DNA of 12,540 bases from Opitutia bacterium (lineage in GTDB: Bacteria; Verrucomicrobiota; Verrucomicrobiia; Opitutales; Opitutaceae): positions 312 through 12,851 of the forward strand of contig PMKA01000328.1 of NCBI GenBank assembly GCA_003157575.1, given 5' to 3'. This document shows, piece by piece, positions 4,103 to 12,272 of this stretch; within the stretch, counting starts at the first letter, position 1, and every line of letters starts with the position of its first letter. The position numbers and the translations under genes were made by a program. The notes beneath the pieces were generated by a model, which saw nothing but the letters and a program-made list of their open reading frames with translations, was not told where the DNA came from and did no database searches.

Positions 4103-4786
4103 ATGTCACTGTTCATCAATACCAACACCGCGGCCTCGAATGCTGCGAACAACCTGGCGGCTTCAAATCTCAACCTGCAGAACAGCCTTAACAAGCTTTC
4201 GAGCGGTTCCCGGATCGTAAAGGCCTCGGACGACGCCGGCGGACTCGCCGCGTCGATGAATTTGACCGCAGCGGCCGCGCAAGCCGGCTCGGCCGTTTCT
4301 TCCGACGCCAACCAGATTTCGTTGCTCCAGGCGAAAGACGGAGTTCTCAAGGTCGCTGGCGACATCGCCACCCGCCTCGCCCAGCTGACATCGCTCAAGA
4401 GCGACACGACGCTGTCGACCTCCGACAAGGCAGGCTACACAACGGAAAGCACCGCGCTGGCAAGCGAACTCGGATCGCTCGCCAACGTGCAGTACAACGG
4501 CAAGGCCCTGTTCACTTCCTCCGAATTGAGCTCCAGTTCCACCTTGGCCAGCATCGCGACCGCCCGCGCGGCGATCGGTGCGGCGCAGAGTTCCGCCCAA
4601 TTCGACTCCCAGGCGGAATCCGTCGCCAAGACCAATCTGGAAGCGGCTGCCGGCCAGATCTCGAATGTCGACGTGGCTTCTGAGGCAACGAGCCTCGCCA
4701 AGTTCAACGTGATGGTGCAGTACGGGGCGGCCATGCTCGCGCAGGCCAACCAAAGCACCCAGGTCGCGCTGAAGCTGATCCAGTAA
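4103..4786 (+). CDS. fliC: Flagellin 1 (short, D0/D1-only type)
   Basis: This is the structural subunit of the flagellar filament, 227 aa. The N-terminal D0/D1 half has the family signature MSLFINTNTAASNAANNL (1-18) and NKLSSGSRIVKASDDAGGLA (30-49). The C-terminal half ends with the conserved AMLAQANQSTQVALKLIQ (210-227). The two halves join through only a short Ser-rich stretch (SSELSSSSTL), so the surface D2/D3 domains of longer flagellins are absent. That leaves a thin filament whose exposed Ser/Thr cluster could accept glycans. No signal peptide is present, as expected for type III export. The ATG is fixed by AAGGAT seven to eight bases upstream. It is expressed from a sigma-28-type promoter and followed by a strong terminator. 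About 93% identical to flagellin 2 (15 differences counted by eye). Confidence 0.96.
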   Translation: MSLFINTNTAASNAANNLAASNLNLQNSLNKLSSGSRIVKASDDAGGLAASMNLTAAAAQAGSAVSSDANQISLLQAKDGVLKVAGDIATRLAQLTSLKSDTTLSTSDKAGYTTESTALASELGSLANVQYNGKALFTSSELSSSSTLASIATARAAIGAAQSSAQFDSQAESVAKTNLEAAAGQISNVDVASEATSLAKFNVMVQYGAAMLAQANQSTQVALKLIQ

Positions 4787-5063: not shown

Positions 5064-5747
5064 ATGTCACTGTTCATTAATACCAACACCGCGGCTTCGA
5101 ATGCTGCGAACAACCTGGCGGTTTCAAATCTGAACCTGCAGAACAGCCTTAACAAGCTCTCGAGCGGTTCCCGGATCGTCAAGGCTTCCGACGACGCAGG
5201 CGGACTTGCTGCGTCGATGAATCTGACCGCTGCTGCCGCGCAGGCCGGCTCGGCTGTGTCAGCCGATGCCAACAGCATCTCGTTGCTGCAGGCGAAAGAC
5301 GGCGTTCTCAAGGTCGCTGGCGACATTGCCACACGCCTGGCCCAGCTGACGTCGCTCAAGAACGACACGACGCTGTCGACCTCCGACAAAGCAGGCTACA
5401 CGACGGAGAGCACCGCGTTGACGACCGAACTCGGATCGCTGGCAAACGTGCAGTACAACGGCAAAGCTCTGTTCACGTCCGCCGAACTGAGCTCCAGCTC
5501 CACATTGTCCACCATCGCGAGCGCCCGGGCCACGATCGGTGCACAGCAAAGCGCCGCCCAGTTCGACTCCCAGGCGGAATCCGTTGCCAAGACCAACCTG
5601 GAAGCGGCTGCCGGCCAGATCTCGAACGTTGACGTGGCTTCTGAGGCGACGAACCTCGCCAAGTACAACGTGATGGTGCAATACGGCGCGGCCATGCTCG
5701 CGCAGGCCAACCAAAGCACACAGGTCGCGTTGAAGCTGATCCAGTAA
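5064..5747 (+). CDS. fliC: Flagellin 2 (short, tandem paralogue)
   Basis: Filament subunit of 227 aa, the same length as both neighbours. The N-terminal signature and the C-terminal AMLAQANQSTQVALKLIQ are identical to flagellin 1. The fifteen differences cluster in the middle (residues 68-161) and are mostly Ala/Ser/Thr swaps such as TSAELSSSSTLSTIASARATIGAQQ, written here only as the local context of the exposed loop. Near the C-terminus Asn and Tyr replace the Ser and Phe of copy 1 (NLAKY versus SLAKF), as in flagellin 3. The ATG is set by AAGGAT. Expression would start at the degenerate promoter upstream and end at its own terminator. Having three subunit genes raises the possibility of a composite filament or stage-specific expression. 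Confidence 0.96.
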   Translation: MSLFINTNTAASNAANNLAVSNLNLQNSLNKLSSGSRIVKASDDAGGLAASMNLTAAAAQAGSAVSADANSISLLQAKDGVLKVAGDIATRLAQLTSLKNDTTLSTSDKAGYTTESTALTTELGSLANVQYNGKALFTSAELSSSSTLSTIASARATIGAQQSAAQFDSQAESVAKTNLEAAAGQISNVDVASEATNLAKYNVMVQYGAAMLAQANQSTQVALKLIQ

Positions 5748-6247: not shown

Positions 6248-6931
6248 ATGTCACTGTTCATCAATACCAATACCGCAGCCGCGAACGCTGCAAACAACCT
6301 GGCCATCTCAAATCTGAATCTGCAGAACAGCCTTAACAAGCTTTCGAGCGGTTCCAGAATCGTCAAGGCCTCGGACGATGCAGGCGGACTTGCCGCGTCG
6401 ATGAATTTGACCGCTGCGGCCAACCACGCGGGGTCAAATGTGTCGTCCGATGCCAACAAGGTCTCGTTTCTGCAGGCGAAGGACGGCGTCCTCAAGGTCG
6501 CAGGGGATATCGCGACCCGTCTGGATCAACTGGCGAAACTCTCGGCCGACACGACGTTGTCCACTGCCGACAAAGCAGGCTATGGGTTGGAGACCACCAC
6601 GTTGACGGCCGAACTCGGGAACCTGGCAACCGTGACGTACAACGGGGCCTCCCTGTTTACTGCGGGCGAACTGAGTTCCAGCTCCACCATAAGCAGCATC
6701 TCGACGGCGCGAGCCGCGACCGGTGCGGCGGAGAGTGCCGCACAGTTCGACTCCCAGGCGCAGAGCGTCACGCAGACGAACCTGCAGGCTGCCGCCGGCC
6801 AGATCTCGAATGTCGACGTGGCTTCTGAGGCAACGAACCTCGCCAAATACAACGTGATGGTGCAATACGGCGCGGCCATGCTGGCGCAGGCCAACCAGAC
6901 GACCCAGATCGCTCTGAAGCTGATCCAGTAA
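6248..6931 (+). CDS. fliC: Flagellin 3 (short, more divergent paralogue)
   Basis: Filament subunit of 227 aa with the same D0/D1-only architecture and identical signatures: SSGSRIVKASDDAGGLA in the N-terminal half and AMLAQANQTTQIALKLIQ at the end. It is clearly more divergent than copies 1 and 2 in the middle. Examples are Asn-His for Ala-Gln at residues 59-60, DQLAKLSADTTLSTADKAGY around 93-112, and VTYNGASLFTAGELSSSSTI around 128-147. The Ser-rich junction is retained. The ATG is set by AAGGAT, with seven bases in between. It is separated from flagellin 2 by a terminator and a 430-bp spacer and has an unrelated leader, so it is probably regulated independently. A short stretch near the 3' end is identical to flagellin 1 at the DNA level, a sign of gene conversion. 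Confidence 0.96.
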   Translation: MSLFINTNTAAANAANNLAISNLNLQNSLNKLSSGSRIVKASDDAGGLAASMNLTAAANHAGSNVSSDANKVSFLQAKDGVLKVAGDIATRLDQLAKLSADTTLSTADKAGYGLETTTLTAELGNLATVTYNGASLFTAGELSSSSTISSISTARAATGAAESAAQFDSQAQSVTQTNLQAAAGQISNVDVASEATNLAKYNVMVQYGAAMLAQANQTTQIALKLIQ

Positions 6932-7195: not shown

Positions 7196-7885
7196 TCAGG
7201 CGGCAGCCACCTGAGTCCCGGCTCCATGCAGGCGGGTGACGTATGCCTTGGCCAGCTCGAGATCGGCTTCAGTGTCGACCTCGAAGCATTCGACCGGCTG
7301 GGCCCGCAAGGGCAGGTGCCTGGACAAACGCGTGAAGACATCCCCGCCATTCTCTTTCAACAGGCCGGCGGGCAGGCAGGCGATATTTGCCCATTCCCAG
7401 AGCGAGCGATCGGTGCGGCTGAACCCTGTCACTGCCAGGAAACCCGTTCTGGGGTCGGGTTCTGCAGCAACGAAGACAGCCTGCTCGGTCTTTGCCTCGG
7501 TAATGCCAATCAGGGGAGCGTTCGCCTCCGCGCACGACAAAAAAGTCTGGAAGGTCCGGCGCTCGAAGATGATGTCCCCATCGAGATAGAGACAGGGCTC
7601 CTCGATGTGGAGTCCTCCCAGCCAGTAGCTCTGTTGGGTCGTGGTTGTGCGAAAAGCCGGATTCCGAACAATGGTGATGTCCCGCCGCAACTGGAAAGCC
7701 GTGTCGATCACCTCATGTTCCATGTAGCCCACCACGAGCCGGACGTCAGGCACCTGTGCAAGCAGGTCAAACTGGTATTCGAGGATGGGTTTCCCCGCGA
7801 CTTCGACGAGGCATTTCGGCCTGCCCAGTCCGAGACGGGAACCCAGGCCTGCGGCGGCGATTACAGCGTGAGCAACAGTCTGCAT
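7196..7885 (-). CDS. LicC-like nucleotidyltransferase (sugar-phosphate or phospho-alcohol activating)
   Basis: The 229-aa protein has the GT-A type nucleotidyltransferase fold. The nucleotide-binding loop is AAAGLGSRLGLGRPKCL (10-26), with Arg17 and Lys24 in the usual places, followed by GKPILEYQFDLL (31-42). The metal-binding acidic motif is LDGD (101-104). The substrate region reads FEVDTEADLELAKAY (201-215), as in LicC/RfbA-related enzymes. Its short length and the missing C-terminal extension point to the LicC/choline-phosphate-cytidylyltransferase-like branch rather than full RmlA. It would make a CDP- or NDP-activated small molecule from an NTP and a phosphorylated substrate. The substrate itself cannot be read. 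It is the last gene of the operon, and its ATG lies inside the HAD gene behind a strong Shine-Dalgarno. Confidence 0.82.
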   Translation of the reverse strand: MQTVAHAVIAAAGLGSRLGLGRPKCLVEVAGKPILEYQFDLLAQVPDVRLVVGYMEHEVIDTAFQLRRDITIVRNPAFRTTTTQQSYWLGGLHIEEPCLYLDGDIIFERRTFQTFLSCAEANAPLIGITEAKTEQAVFVAAEPDPRTGFLAVTGFSRTDRSLWEWANIACLPAGLLKENGGDVFTRLSRHLPLRAQPVECFEVDTEADLELAKAYVTRLHGAGTQVAAA

Positions 7886-8469
7886 AATGTCTCTCCTTTC
7901 GCTACAACGTATTCGGAATTCTCGATGACCTCCCGCGCCGGGGCGTGGACGCCCCCGTAGGCCACACCGATGTCCGCTTCCTCAAACATCGGCATGTCAT
8001 TTTGTCCCTCGCCGATCACCACGACGCGGTCGTACTGGCCGCGAAGCTCGCGAATCGGAGTGCTCTTGCGCAGCACGCTCGTCAGGGGCCCCAGGCGGCC
8101 GTCGGACCGCACGACAGCAGTGGAGGAGAAGACGCGGCAACCGAGGCGGGCTGCCAGACGTGCGATCCAGACATCCAGATTGCCGGTGACGAGAAAGCAC
8201 TGCTCCCGGTGTTCGCCGAGGAATGCCGCGATCGCCGGATCCACGGGCACCTGCTCCACGATCTTCGCAACGGTTGCCACGTCGATCTCGGCCAGAAGGC
8301 GGCAACGCAGGCGGAAACTCATTTCAAAGGGGATTTGTCCTTTGATCGTCATCTGTGTCAGAAAGCCGATCTCCTCGGCCAGGCCCAGCTCTGCCGCAAT
8401 GATCGGCAGAACCTCCCGACGGGTCACGGTGCCATCGAGGTCGAAGCAGAAGGCGGTGTTCGGTTTCAT
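7861..8469 (-). CDS. HAD-superfamily phosphatase, SerB-like
   Basis: A 202-aa haloacid-dehalogenase-fold hydrolase. Motif I is CFDLDGT (8-14), with nucleophile Asp10 and acid/base Asp12. A helical cap follows (about 15-80). Motif II is LVTGN with Thr95. Motif III is Lys135. Motif IV is GEGQNDMPMF (153-162), in which Glu154 replaces the more common first Asp while Asp158 is kept. This fits the phosphoserine-phosphatase-like subfamily acting on small phosphorylated metabolites. The gene begins three bases after the methyltransferase stop. Its last 25 bases overlap the start of the nucleotidyltransferase, so the two are probably made together. A role in supplying or trimming a phosphorylated precursor for that enzyme is inferred. 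The substrate is unknown. Confidence 0.85.
   Translation of the reverse strand: MKPNTAFCFDLDGTVTRREVLPIIAAELGLAEEIGFLTQMTIKGQIPFEMSFRLRCRLLAEIDVATVAKIVEQVPVDPAIAAFLGEHREQCFLVTGNLDVWIARLAARLGCRVFSSTAVVRSDGRLGPLTSVLRKSTPIRELRGQYDRVVVIGEGQNDMPMFEEADIGVAYGGVHAPAREVIENSEYVVAKGETLCRLLLTL
7893..7898 (-). promoter_or_regulatory. Strong ribosome binding site of the nucleotidyltransferase
   Basis: AAGGAG on the minus strand, seven bases before the ATG at 7885 and inside the HAD coding region. It decides the start codon. It stands out because the other leftward genes lack a clear Shine-Dalgarno. Confidence 0.75.
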
Positions 8470-8472
8470 GGC

Positions 8473-9195
8473 TTATTTCGTCCAAAACAGGATTCGTTGC
8501 TCGGTCTCCTTGCGGTTGCAGAGCTCGGGCGGATAGAGCGGGCGTTCCACGACGCGCGTGAAGCCCGCCTTTTCCAGTGGAGCTCCGAACAGCTCGAGAC
8601 ACTGGAGGACGGTGCGATAGACGGCGCTGTAGTCGGTCTTCAACTCTGCGGAGGGAAAACGATCGAGGGTCAGGCGTTCTTGCAGGGCCATCGGCTCCCG
8701 CAGATAGACCCGGGCCCCGGGAGCCGCCATGGCTCCGAGCGCCCGCGCGAGGCGCACCACATCGTCATCGTTGAGGTAGATCAGAATCCCCGCGCAGATG
8801 AAAAGGTCGAACGGCGGCGGGACGATCAGCGTGCAGGGCGAGATGTCCTGGGCGGCCAGTCGCTGGAAGCGGACGGTCGGACCGGCCTTGATTTCCGCCA
8901 GCTTCAGCAATGCGGCGCTGAAATCCACACCGAGATAGCTGCTGATCTTTCCGGACAGCGCCTCGGCCCAGCGTCCGTAACCGCATCCGATGTCGAGGAC
9001 GCGGTCCTCCTGCCGAACGGCGAGCAACGGCAATACTGTGGTCCGTTCGCAGGCATCCCGCCTGGATGCCAGGGCCTGATCCTGATACATCGTCGATGTC
9101 TGGGGAGAATCGGGGCGCGCCGCCGCGCCGCGCGCCTCGAAGAACTCGAGTGTGGCGGTATAACTGATGTCGTGCTGGCTGCCGTGATAACGCAT
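8473..9195 (-). CDS. Class I SAM-dependent methyltransferase
   Basis: 240 aa. The SAM-binding Rossmann core is plain: motif I VLDIGCGYGRW (66-76), acidic end of strand 2 at YLGVD (87-91), motif II-like PFDLFICAGILIYL (128-141) and motif III GARVYLREP (160-168). The N-terminal 60 residues are probably a helical lid or substrate-binding segment. The C-terminal part (about 175-240) would complete the fold. The open frame extends much further upstream, but the part beyond 9195 overlaps the large transferase gene and has no family character, so the ATG at 9195 (MRYHGSQHD) is chosen, 17 bases after the preceding stop. A methylated glycan or a methylated carrier intermediate is the likely product in this operon. 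The acceptor is not known. It could also methylate flagellin directly. Confidence 0.88.
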   Translation of the reverse strand: MRYHGSQHDISYTATLEFFEARGAAARPDSPQTSTMYQDQALASRRDACERTTVLPLLAVRQEDRVLDIGCGYGRWAEALSGKISSYLGVDFSAALLKLAEIKAGPTVRFQRLAAQDISPCTLIVPPPFDLFICAGILIYLNDDDVVRLARALGAMAAPGARVYLREPMALQERLTLDRFPSAELKTDYSAVYRTVLQCLELFGAPLEKAGFTRVVERPLYPPELCNRKETEQRILFWTK

Positions 9196-9212
9196 GGAGG
9201 AAGATCGGAGGG

Positions 9213-12200
9213 TCAGGCCGCGGCAGTTTGCCTGACGGTCCCGGTTGGGTGCGCCTCGACCGCCAGTCGCCGGAGGATTTCCTGTTTGATCGCCGGGGAG
9301 ACTCCTCCGGCAGGGCAGTACATCACTTCGCCGTAGGCCGATGCGCGGTCCGCGGCGCGCGGATCGCGGCCGGCCTCCACCATGTCGAGGAAGGCGGTCA
9401 CATCGTCCTGCGTCTCGGCCTTGTAGTGATGCCGGCAGATGAACTCTCCGTCGTCGTTGAGTTGGGGGCCACGCGGATTGTGCAGGTAGAGCAGGGGCTT
9501 GGTGGTCGCAGAGTATTCGAGAAGGAAGGTCGACGCATCGGAGAGCATCGCGTCCGACGCAGCGAAAACCGGCAGGTAGGATGCGCGGCGATCGATCAGG
9601 ATGTTGCCGGCGTTCTTCGCCCGCCGCAGAAAGTCCGCGACCTGCGCCGCGTTCCACAGGTTGCGTTTCTCGAGCGTGCCGAAAAAGAGCGGATGGGGCC
9701 GGATCACAAAGGCGAGTCGCTGCCGCCGTGCGAACTCGTCGATGAAGAACCGTTCCCATGTCATGAAGGTCGAATAGCCGGTCCCATCCGGGCGGATGTC
9801 GAACTGTGGATTCCAGAACACCATCTTCCGCCCTCTGGCGTGGGCGGTGAATTCGGGATCGCGCGGCATCTGGCCAAGTGACCGGAGGGTGTCGAGGCGG
9901 GGATGTCCGGTCACCGCCACATGAGCGTCGCCCGCGCTGCAATGCCGGGCGAACATGGCCTTGTGCCGTGGCGAGCGGGCAAAGACGGCCCATGCGAATC
10001 GCTGCAACGGCAGGTTGAATTGATTCTGGCCGTTCACCTCGCCGCCGCCGATTTCCAGTCCGTAGGGCACGTAGGCGAGCCGGGGCACGAGCTTGATCAG
10101 ATTCTGGGTCTGGAGCGCTTCGGGGCGCGTGACGTCGTAGGGATTCTGCAAAAACACCAGGTCCGCGAAGTCCGGCGCAAGGGGGAATTTGTTCCAGCGC
10201 ACGAAAGGAACCCCTTCCTTCTTGAGAAAGCCGTAGATTGCCTCCGGACCCCCTTCGGGCGGATAGGGATGGTTGTAGGGAGCGGCGATGATGGTCGTGG
10301 CAAACGCAGGATCTGCCGCCAACGCCTGCCAGACGGCCTGCAGGCTCGTCCAGCCTTGCGGATGCTGCACCACAAACGCAACCCGCACCGGTCCGGCTGA
10401 TGGATCGATCAGGCTCACCTCAGTGGTTGCGCCCGAGGAGCGGCGATGCCAGGAAATCGCTTCGAGAATCTGTCCGCCGCGTTTCAGCAAATCGCCCAGC
10501 TCCAACGCGGCGATCTGGGCATCGGGATGGATTTCAGAGGCCCGCCGGAGGACGGTTTCGGCCGCGGGATGATTGCCTTCTGCGAGGTGCACATGGGCCA
10601 GGGTGATCAGGCCGCGCAAGTCCGACGGTCTGGCGTTGAGGACTGCGCCGACGGCCGAACGCGCCTCGCCCAGTCGTCCATTCAGGAGCAGCGCCTCGGC
10701 GAGCGGGGCCTGAATATCGACGTCGTCCGGATGCAGGGTGAGCGCATGGCGAAGCACTCTTTCAGCGAGGGGACTGTTTCTGGCTCGAAGCGCCAATTCC
10801 CCGATGAACACAGCAGCCTCGGCGTCCTGCGGATTCCGCAGGATGATCCTGCAGGCCATGGCCATCGCTTCGTTGGGAAGGTTGCGCAGGAGAAGCGCCT
10901 TTGCCTGCGCGGTCTCTTCGGTGGCGGCTGACGCCGCCGTTGAATTGCGGATGAACAGCGCAACGTCGTTGCTGGCTGCCTCGAAACCGGCGCTGGAAAA
11001 ACGGCGTATGAGGCCGGCCCGGTCTTCGTCTCCGGCGTCCCAACACCAGAGACACGGGGCACGGTCCGTCGACGCAGGATCGAGCCGGGCGCGGCTCAAT
11101 ACCGCGAGATCGGCCCCGACGCTGCTCGAGGTCGGAATTGTGCGCACCCGTGGAAGCGTGGCGCACATCCGCGCGAAATCGGCCGGTGCGTCCGGATCAA
11201 GGGCCACGCACACGCTTTCCTGCTGGCGGTGCGTTTCCTGGAGGGCCTCGTAGACCACCAGCGATTGAAGCAGTCGATCTGTGTTTCCGCCGAAGAACAC
11301 CGGCGGTTGTGCTGCAAACGGCAATGGAAACGCCTCGACGCCATCGAGAACAAGCCGGCGAAACGCGTCGCGGCGGCGAGTCTCGTTGAACTGCTCGTCG
11401 AACCATTTTGCGCCGGCTGCGCCGATCGCGCGCGCCTCGGTGGGGCGGGCGATCAAATGCGCAGCCCGTTCGCTCAGCTCGGCCCCATCGGGATAGGTGA
11501 CGATCTCCCGCCCGTCCGTGAACAGTTCGCCGAGGCCGCTTTCCGGCGCCAGGCGGTCGGTCAGCACGGCGGCGCCGGCGGCAAGCAGCTCGAAAATGCG
11601 CAGATTCAGGTCGCCGTTGAGGCTCGCGTTGAAGCCGATAAGCGAGCGCCCATAAAAACCCAGGCTCTCCGCCTGCGAGATTTGCCGTGCGGCGACGGGA
11701 AGTTTGCGGGCGGCGAGCGCTTCGAGCAGGCGGGCGCGGTACGGGTGGAATTTGCCCGCCTGACCGACGAAGGCGATCCGGGGCTCGCGTTTGACGCTGC
11801 GGGCGGCATGGACCGTCGCATCGCCATGGGGGAACGTAAGGCCGGGGAACCAGAAGATGTTTCGAAATCCGGCAGCGTGGAAGAACGCCGCATGGTGCCT
11901 GTCATAAAGGAACACGATGCGATCGAAGGGTTCGGCGGCCGCATATCGCAGCATGCCGATGAGCGGCGATTTCAGGTGATGGGTGTCGGCCACCAAAAGG
12001 ACACGGGGACATTTGAAGGCCCCGAGATTGCGCGGCAGGTTGCGCCAGCTCGCATCGACGAGGCAGACGACCGCGTCGGGCTTCTGCTGCGGGGAAAGCC
12101 TGGCCGCCACCTTGGCCAGGTCGTATTCGCCGACAGGCGTGGCCAACGAGCGCACCCGGCTGTCCGGGGCCGCGTCGTCCACCCAATCGGGGCCGCAATT

Positions 12201-12272
12201 CACCTGCTCCTCCCCAAGTCGGGGTGGAAGCATGTAATTGGCGGGACTGCCAGTCGCGAATAGGACGAACAT
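9213..12272 (-). CDS. Fusion protein: CgeB-like glycosyltransferase, TPR, CDP-glycerol glycerophosphotransferase-like
   Basis: 1019 aa in three parts. Residues 1-310 resemble the CgeB/YkvP-type GT-B glycosyltransferases: VLLVADTHHL (91-100), RIAFVGQAGKFHPYRARLL (165-183), and the donor-site segment NLRIFELLAAGAAVLTD (223-239). A linker of unclear nature (310-450) is followed by about four tetratricopeptide-like repeats (450-612; for example LTLHPDD and EIHPDAQ at repeat ends), as in protein-acting transferases. Residues 628-1003 resemble CDP-glycerol:glycerophosphotransferases of the teichoic-acid type: GHPRLD (789-794), the active-site-like RPHP (858-861), and SDAMLSDASTFLLEY (906-920) before KPLLYL. 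No signal peptide or membrane segment is seen, so it acts in the cytoplasm. It is the first gene of the leftward operon, with no clear Shine-Dalgarno. The acceptor could be flagellin, by proximity, or a surface polymer. Confidence 0.82.
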   Translation of the reverse strand: MFVLFATGSPANYMLPPRLGEEQVNCGPDWVDDAAPDSRVRSLATPVGEYDLAKVAARLSPQQKPDAVVCLVDASWRNLPRNLGAFKCPRVLLVADTHHLKSPLIGMLRYAAAEPFDRIVFLYDRHHAAFFHAAGFRNIFWFPGLTFPHGDATVHAARSVKREPRIAFVGQAGKFHPYRARLLEALAARKLPVAARQISQAESLGFYGRSLIGFNASLNGDLNLRIFELLAAGAAVLTDRLAPESGLGELFTDGREIVTYPDGAELSERAAHLIARPTEARAIGAAGAKWFDEQFNETRRRDAFRRLVLDGVEAFPLPFAAQPPVFFGGNTDRLLQSLVVYEALQETHRQQESVCVALDPDAPADFARMCATLPRVRTIPTSSSVGADLAVLSRARLDPASTDRAPCLWCWDAGDEDRAGLIRRFSSAGFEAASNDVALFIRNSTAASAATEETAQAKALLLRNLPNEAMAMACRIILRNPQDAEAAVFIGELALRARNSPLAERVLRHALTLHPDDVDIQAPLAEALLLNGRLGEARSAVGAVLNARPSDLRGLITLAHVHLAEGNHPAAETVLRRASEIHPDAQIAALELGDLLKRGGQILEAISWHRRSSGATTEVSLIDPSAGPVRVAFVVQHPQGWTSLQAVWQALAADPAFATTIIAAPYNHPYPPEGGPEAIYGFLKKEGVPFVRWNKFPLAPDFADLVFLQNPYDVTRPEALQTQNLIKLVPRLAYVPYGLEIGGGEVNGQNQFNLPLQRFAWAVFARSPRHKAMFARHCSAGDAHVAVTGHPRLDTLRSLGQMPRDPEFTAHARGRKMVFWNPQFDIRPDGTGYSTFMTWERFFIDEFARRQRLAFVIRPHPLFFGTLEKRNLWNAAQVADFLRRAKNAGNILIDRRASYLPVFAASDAMLSDASTFLLEYSATTKPLLYLHNPRGPQLNDDGEFICRHHYKAETQDDVTAFLDMVEAGRDPRAADRASAYGEVMYCPAGGVSPAIKQEILRRLAVEAHPTGTVRQTAAA

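Follow-up and report, generated by a model that had tools for sequence, protein, structure and literature searches.

A flagellin-facing operon in an Opitutaceae genome as a probable variant of the Type A/b-type flagellin modification pathway

We analysed a 12,540-nucleotide stretch of a draft Opitutia genome (Opitutaceae; GenBank assembly GCA_003157575.1, contig PMKA01000328.1, positions 312 to 12,851; hereafter the window) in which a four-gene minus-strand operon (7196-12272) converges on three plus-strand flagellin genes. The operon encodes a 1019-residue fusion protein, a methyltransferase, a SerB-like HAD protein and a LicC/PntC-like nucleotidyltransferase. We conclude with reasonable confidence that it is a verrucomicrobial variant of the flagellin modification pathway called Type A in Clostridioides difficile and b-type in Pseudomonas aeruginosa, based on the homology, order and active sites of the three small enzymes, a conserved gene overlap and the position beside flagellins. 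Our best reading of the expected glycan, by analogy, is an O-linked sugar carrying a phosphodiester-linked N-methylated amino acid, which is threonine in the two solved cases.

Correspondence with characterised loci

The flagellin glycan of P. aeruginosa PAO1 consists of a deoxyhexose, phosphate and N,N-dimethylthreonine (PMC11833859), and that of C. difficile 630 of N-acetylglucosamine, phosphate and N-methylthreonine (PMC10714395). According to the published accounts, both are built by a phosphoserine-phosphatase-like HAD protein, a nucleotidyltransferase, a methyltransferase, a TagF-like phosphotransferase and a glycosyltransferase (PMC10714395, PMC11833859), by way of a proposed cytidine diphosphate (CDP)-threonine, which its proposers describe as a previously undescribed metabolite (PMC10714395). 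The initial annotation of the window had proposed that a methylated phospho-compound is joined to the filament by a phosphodiester, and homology to this enzyme set supports that proposal. It had called such a modification unusual; the type is not new, since these two chemically characterised precedents exist.

When plasmid records were searched at the protein level with the window nucleotidyltransferase, a single record came back, P. aeruginosa NZ_CP131792.1. Here the match has flgL on one side and a gene annotated 'B-type flagellin' on the other, in the order flgL, methyltransferase, HAD, nucleotidyltransferase, phosphotransferase/glycosyltransferase, fliC. The flagellin carries the exact 36-residue glycopeptide printed in the b-type report (PMC11833859), and this is therefore the characterised type of locus. 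Window and P. aeruginosa proteins are 51.5% identical over 196 residues for the HAD protein (E = 2.6e-71), 43% over 247 residues for the methyltransferase (E = 5.5e-57) and 42% over 210 residues for the nucleotidyltransferase (E = 6.4e-53). The b-type locus (PA1088-PA1091) shares with the window the order methyltransferase, HAD, nucleotidyltransferase, the 25-nucleotide overlap and a sugar transferase/phosphotransferase fusion next to flagellin. The fusions differ in plan: the P. aeruginosa protein has 1694 residues, with the phosphotransferase first and a GT2 domain later, whereas the window protein runs from PF13524 through TPRs to the phosphotransferase, and its gene lies upstream of the methyltransferase rather than downstream of the nucleotidyltransferase. 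Published annotation assigns the same five functions to C. difficile Type A (CD0240-CD0244; PMC10714395), where, unlike in the window, glycosyltransferase and phosphotransferase are on separate genes. The plasmid record is itself odd: it is 847 kb long, is labelled a P. aeruginosa conjugative plasmid and holds flagellar genes from flgC to fleS, including the B-type fliC, which points either to a large insert from the chromosome or to an assembly anomaly.

The three small enzymes

The gene identities proposed by the initial annotation, a double transferase with TPRs, a methyltransferase, a HAD protein and a LicC-like nucleotidyltransferase, were borne out by domain searches. The HAD protein matches NCBIfam serB (E = 2e-21, under the equivalog cut-off) and HAD-IB (over its cut-off), and its family profile finds the phosphoserine phosphatase of M. 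jannaschii (E = 4.6e-29). The 21 compared sequences all share residues D10, D12, E19, F48, R55, G96, N97, K135, N157 and D158; by alignment, the catalytic residues and the substrate residues of phosphoserine phosphatase are kept in all of them. In the alignment with the M. jannaschii enzyme, E19 and R55 correspond to its E20 and R56, and the substrate of the HAD protein is therefore probably an O-phospho-amino acid.

Domain searches place the methyltransferase in class I; its profile is nearest to phosphoethanolamine N-methyltransferases (5wp5, E = 4.8e-22), with glycine N-methyltransferase lower down. The nucleotidyltransferase is of MobA/IspD type. The best solved relative of the window protein is LicC (1jyk, E = 3.6e-6), and the nearest solved structures to the family profile are the cytidylyltransferases PntC (6pd1, E = 8.5e-17; phosphonate) and LicC (1jyk, E = 1e-12; phosphocholine). 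PntC is a 2-aminoethylphosphonate enzyme; Pfam found no aminotransferase fusion of the 6pd1 kind in the window protein, whose 229 residues form a nucleotidyltransferase domain only. It is a probable cytidine triphosphate (CTP):phospho-amino-acid cytidylyltransferase. Concatenated, the three small enzymes are 69-73% identical to those of five other Opitutae loci.

The fusion protein

The N-terminus of the fusion contains a Glyco_trans_1_2 domain (PF13524, E = 6.9e-19, Pfam), which makes it the predicted candidate for a core-sugar glycosyltransferase encoded with the cassette; the first 450 residues matched no solved structure in a sequence search. Relatives of the fusion are 45-65% identical over about the full length, and the joining of a PF13524 glycosyltransferase to the phosphotransferase was found in six Opitutae loci and one Bryobacterales locus. 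In stretches chosen for matching the fusion protein, the sugar-transferase module was present in 19 of 20. Ten of these 19 also hold a flagellin within the same stretch, and six of the ten (L086, L089, L098-L101) are without the cassette nucleotidyltransferase. The module is a probable flagellin O-glycosyltransferase, judging by this association.

The TPRs possibly form a flagellin-docking segment, by analogy with FlmG of Caulobacter, whose TPR domain binds flagellins (PMC7591256). In the published description, on which this functional comparison draws, FlmG joins its TPR domain to a GT-B-type flagellin transferase, as the window protein would; it places pseudaminic acid on flagellin and is described as having TPR and glycosyltransferase domains alone, unlike the window protein. 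What appears new in the window is the PF13524 transferase and TPRs predicted ahead of the phosphotransferase.

The C-terminal third is, by its sequence relationships, a divergent phosphotransferase of the TagF/TarL, CDP-alcohol type. It gives a weak Glyphos_transf match (PF04464, E = 8.8e-4, 18.8 bits where the cut-off is 22.1), a domain found in 16 of 18 members of the phosphotransferase family, and the family profile finds TarL (8va1, E = 1.3e-9) and, weakly, TagF. When 5 sequences were searched, the same profile matched the P. aeruginosa fusion at 30.5 bits (E = 3.9e-11). In Kluyvera, Dryocola and L073 the phosphotransferase and the cassette methyltransferase share a single reading frame. 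One relative (G028, L083 7074-11210) has a further C-terminal methyltransferase domain besides the separate cassette methyltransferase. We had read relatives of 1208-1274 residues as fusions with the operon methyltransferase and dropped this, the G028 domain being an additional methyltransferase.

Proposed pathway

Following the published model, the SerB-like HAD protein would make O-phosphothreonine, or a closely related phospho-amino acid, with a phosphoryl group from phosphoserine. The LicC/PntC-like enzyme would then use CTP to form CDP-threonine, its family being assigned from sequence and its product by inference, and the methyltransferase would N-methylate the amino group once or twice. 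The N-terminal module of the fusion, probably docked on flagellin through its TPRs, would add the core sugar to Ser/Thr residues of the three flagellins. Finally, the TagF-like domain would move phospho-(N-methyl)threonine from CDP to the sugar, leaving a phosphodiester. On top of the sugar this would add a computed 195.03 Da with one methyl group or 209.05 Da with two; for the dimethyl form, the b-type glycan is known to give an m/z 130.086 fragment.

The three putative acceptors share the Ser/Thr cluster LFTxxELSSSST. The initial annotation had pointed to their Ser/Thr richness; the cluster is indeed in all three, and the richness is weak evidence because flagellins of cassette-less relatives are about equally rich (18.6-23.0% against 21.6-22.9%). 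The window flagellins, with 227 residues, fall short of the 254-274 residues of flagellins in the related loci examined, and part of the central region is absent from them.

Spread of the cassette

Scanning species genomes with an alignment of the nucleotidyltransferase gave 41 loci, and in 40 of them the HAD and methyltransferase genes lie beside it; the grouping of these genes is therefore not due to chance. The remaining locus, L081, holds the nucleotidyltransferase alone and was left out of the cassette count. A phosphotransferase was detected in 35 of the 40 cassette loci. Carriers include Opitutae, a Bryobacterales metagenome-assembled genome, Mobilicoccus and other Actinomycetota, Acidimicrobiales, Rhizobiaceae, Hafnia, Kluyvera, Dryocola, Variovorax, Methylobacterium and Luteimonas. 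In a tree of 30 taxa and 669 columns, the window, the remaining Opitutae and the Bryobacterales form one group (support 98), and several deep nodes are weak (support 26-54).

Flagellar genes were found in the stretches fetched around 13 of 40 cassette loci and in none of 16 control stretches (p = 0.011), a comparison in which related loci, such as near-identical Rhizobium, are not independent, several stretches end at contig ends, and the flagellar queries derive partly from cassette loci themselves (L047, L048, L049, L064) and the window. The controls came from cassette-bearing genomes, 4 of 20 having been dropped for being under 15 kb. Five of the six Opitutae loci have flagellins in the fetched stretch (the window, L041, L042, L044 and L045; not L043). 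Flagellin is encoded by 37 of 39 searched cassette genomes, a figure without a matched background that excludes the genomes of L058 and L081. The initial annotation would have been refuted by homologous operons lying mainly beside capsule or lipopolysaccharide genes and not with flagellins. Its expectation is only partly borne out: besides the 13 flagellar loci, four have type IV pilus genes instead and 23 have neither in the fetched stretch.

The Hafnia cassette lies between fliJ and flgN, and Kluyvera and Dryocola show the same layout. This interval is the flag-2 VR1 of Enterobacterales, known as a flagellin modification interval, for which the published description mentions glycosyltransferases, methyltransferases and others and not the cassette as a unit (PMC6993521). 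Pfam confirmed FliF, FliG, FliH, FliJ, FlgN and a rod protein (FlgC) in Hafnia, FliF in L049 and FliP in L064; the FliI gene matched ATP-synt_ab and T3SS_ATPase_C, and the Hafnia FlgD-FlgK genes match annotated P. aeruginosa genes. Flagellar labels beyond these were first assigned by eye. Hafnia cassette DNA had no match in E. coli genomes, and the nucleotidyltransferase had no relative in viral contigs.

In Gammaproteobacteria, 62 of 369 genomes match the nucleotidyltransferase profile at 1e-12, of which the seed and G279 alone are stronger than 1e-30; the other 60 were taken as generic nucleotidyltransferases without a case-by-case check. G279 holds a divergent cassette with HAD, nucleotidyltransferase and phosphotransferase, its methyltransferase being on the other strand. 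Strong HAD matches came from 2 of 391 genomes of class Clostridia (G886 and G1000), and three published C. difficile peptides were absent from the stretches around these two matches. The G1000 stretch (L140) has HAD, nucleotidyltransferase and phosphotransferase pieces adjoining flgB-flgC-fliF-fliG-fliH-fliI matches; it gave no methyltransferase match and is a possible unmethylated variant of the cassette.

A BLASTP survey from C. difficile in 2014 is described as finding Type A genes clustered at a flagellar locus elsewhere only in PAO1, with orthologues of CD0241 and CD0242 occasionally together in other genomes (PMC4441256). We found no report of cassette spread beyond C. difficile and PAO1 among the literature matches listed. 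Phosphate-linked decoration of flagella is probably far more widespread than published, and the cassette spans several phyla; some carriers are, to judge by record titles, environmental bacteria, and this range offers harmless organisms in which the CDP-threonine route could be tested.

The HAD and nucleotidyltransferase genes overlap by 25 nucleotides in 36 of 39 scored loci, across phyla, and by 28 in the other three; L054, with no start scored and a split HAD frame, was left out of the count. Mean pairwise identity of the overlap DNA is 77%, versus 53% in the 75 nucleotides upstream and 64% in the 75 downstream (28 sequences). The double coding of the overlap may by itself account for this conservation. 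We read the overlap as an apparent mark of common descent of the HAD-nucleotidyltransferase pair.

A pilus-linked branch

Two Luteimonas, Frateuria, Hydrogenophaga and Hephaestia form a clade with support 100, and four of its five loci (L074, L075, L077, L080) have type IV pilin genes (pilA) within 10 kb. In three of these four, pilB and pilC lie on the other side. The 16 control stretches gave no pilin match and one weak PilB-like match (L162, E = 9.2e-8). The genome of Luteimonas colneyensis (L077) is without a flagellin match, and no TagF-like phosphotransferase was detected in its locus; the transferase part of the cassette may be exchangeable. Gene position suggests that a similar phospho-amino-acid tag is placed on pilin or on a pilin-bound glycan, and this clade thus predicts a pilin modification. 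No pilin modification of such a kind was found among the literature matches listed in a search aimed at it. The cross-phylum spread and this pilus branch are more surprising than the window variant itself.

Discussion

Several observations weigh against a Type A/b-type function for the window operon. The phosphotransferase domain taken alone remains under the Pfam cut-off (18.8-21.5 against 22.1 bits) and is 23% identical to its P. aeruginosa counterpart over just 116 residues, and the sugar transferase belongs to a family (PF13524) other than that of the GT2 protein FgtA. A phosphotransferase went undetected in 5 of 40 cassette loci, the 23 loci with neither filament are to be added, and 2 of 39 cassette genomes gave no flagellin match. 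No flagellar gene was matched in the 20 kb of G279, and the 8.4-kb contig of G886 holds only the HAD gene, likewise without a flagellar match nearby. In 200 Opitutaceae genomes the cassette HAD occurs in 4, all with flagellin; flagellin is in 112 of the 200, and this co-occurrence could therefore be chance (probability 0.096). In the model organisms the enzyme steps rest on mutants and prediction, as the published accounts present them (PMC10714395, PMC11833859), and no published activity assay for any cassette enzyme was seen in these accounts. Lastly, a LicD gene (L077 10687-11631; PF04991, E = 6.4e-43) directly follows the nucleotidyltransferase in Luteimonas colneyensis.

This last gene bears on the alternative that fares best, in which the same filament would receive a phosphodiester of another phospho-amine, similar to phosphoethanolamine or phosphocholine, N-methylated by an enzyme resembling phosphoethanolamine N-methyltransferase and activated by the LicC-like enzyme. 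The nearest neighbours of the methyltransferase profile, and PntC and LicC as those of the nucleotidyltransferase profile, also fit it. In the four window proteins, however, Pfam found neither a LicD nor a choline kinase domain, and we regard this alternative as unlikely.

We give still less credence to the idea that the operon modifies another surface glycan, such as capsule, lipopolysaccharide or exopolysaccharide, with flagellin adjacency an accident. In the Luteimonas/Frateuria clade the cassette does sit amid genes that look like polysaccharide genes, one of them, in L080, a Polysacc_synt flippase, and the 23 loci near neither filament also fit; set against this are the flagellin position of five of the six Opitutae loci, flagellar loci in other classes, and the sugar-transferase module found with flagellins in the six stretches that have no nucleotidyltransferase. 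That the operon has decayed or become inactive is very improbable: the draft genome is incomplete, but all four reading frames are open, the HAD active-site residues are kept and the small enzymes have the 69-73% identity to those of other Opitutae given above.

Beyond the window, we tentatively propose, at somewhat less than even confidence, that methyltransferase, HAD and nucleotidyltransferase, in most cases joined by a TagF-like phosphotransferase, form the core of a portable cassette writing a phosphodiester tag derived from a CDP-amino acid on different surface filaments. The target would be the flagellum in Verrucomicrobiota, Pseudomonadota and Actinomycetota and the type IV pilus in the Luteimonas/Frateuria/Hydrogenophaga clade. 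The cassette would be locked together by the 25-nucleotide overlap, and the sugar transferase would vary with the target while the core stays constant. The suggested logic is modular, with a single tag-making core and exchangeable sugar transferases.

Operon layout and genomic setting

The coordinates confirm the earlier description of four closely packed leftward genes, with gaps of 17 and 3 bases and then the overlap, facing three flagellin genes (Table 1). Beyond the flagellins lie fliD and fliS (Pfam, NCBIfam). The window comes from a 20-kb contig of a 3.99-Mb draft genome that is 73.6% complete, and its close protein matches are named Opitutus, Didemnitutus and Lacunisphaera, which puts it within or close to Opitutaceae. 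Three contigs, of up to 55,753 bases, carry the 1019-residue protein, and it is therefore not confined to the 20-kb contig.

Table 1. Features of the operon and of the flagellin genes it faces (window coordinates)
Feature	Position	Strand	Length or residues	Remarks
Fusion gene	9213-12272	minus	1019 aa	
Sugar-transferase module	10953-12272	minus	residues 1-440	PF13524 at 194-297
TPR repeats	10440-10910	minus	residues ~455-611	TPR_19, TPR_14, others (Pfam)
Phosphotransferase domain	9234-10388	minus	residues ~629-1013	PHP...D.S...E signature
Methyltransferase gene	8473-9195	minus	240 aa	counterpart of PA1088/CD0243
SerB-like HAD gene	7861-8469	minus	202 aa	counterpart of PA1089/CD0241
HAD stop / nucleotidyltransferase start overlap	7861-7885	minus	25 nt	
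LicC/PntC-like nucleotidyltransferase gene	7196-7885	minus	229 aa	counterpart of PA1090/CD0242
Flagellin A	4103-4786	plus	227 aa	PF00669/PF00700; candidate acceptor, Ser/Thr cluster 4514-4561
Flagellin B	5064-5747	plus	227 aa	candidate acceptor, Ser/Thr cluster 5475-5522
Flagellin C	6248-6931	plus	227 aa	candidate acceptor, Ser/Thr cluster 6659-6706

Directly to the right of the window on the same contig (L082 12954-17665) are a TPR/GT41 O-GlcNAc-transferase-like gene, a PF01973 gene read as Maf-like and a PF02348 cytidylyltransferase. These predicted functions may provide a second glycan on the window flagellins. A neighbouring nonulosonic-acid route was left unconfirmed, with no NeuB in the 73.6%-complete genome. 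Between fliD and fliS lie a gene for a 243-residue protein (1387-2118) and one for a 94-residue protein read as FlgM-like (992-1276), both without a Pfam or NCBIfam match, and their order is kept in related Opitutae loci.

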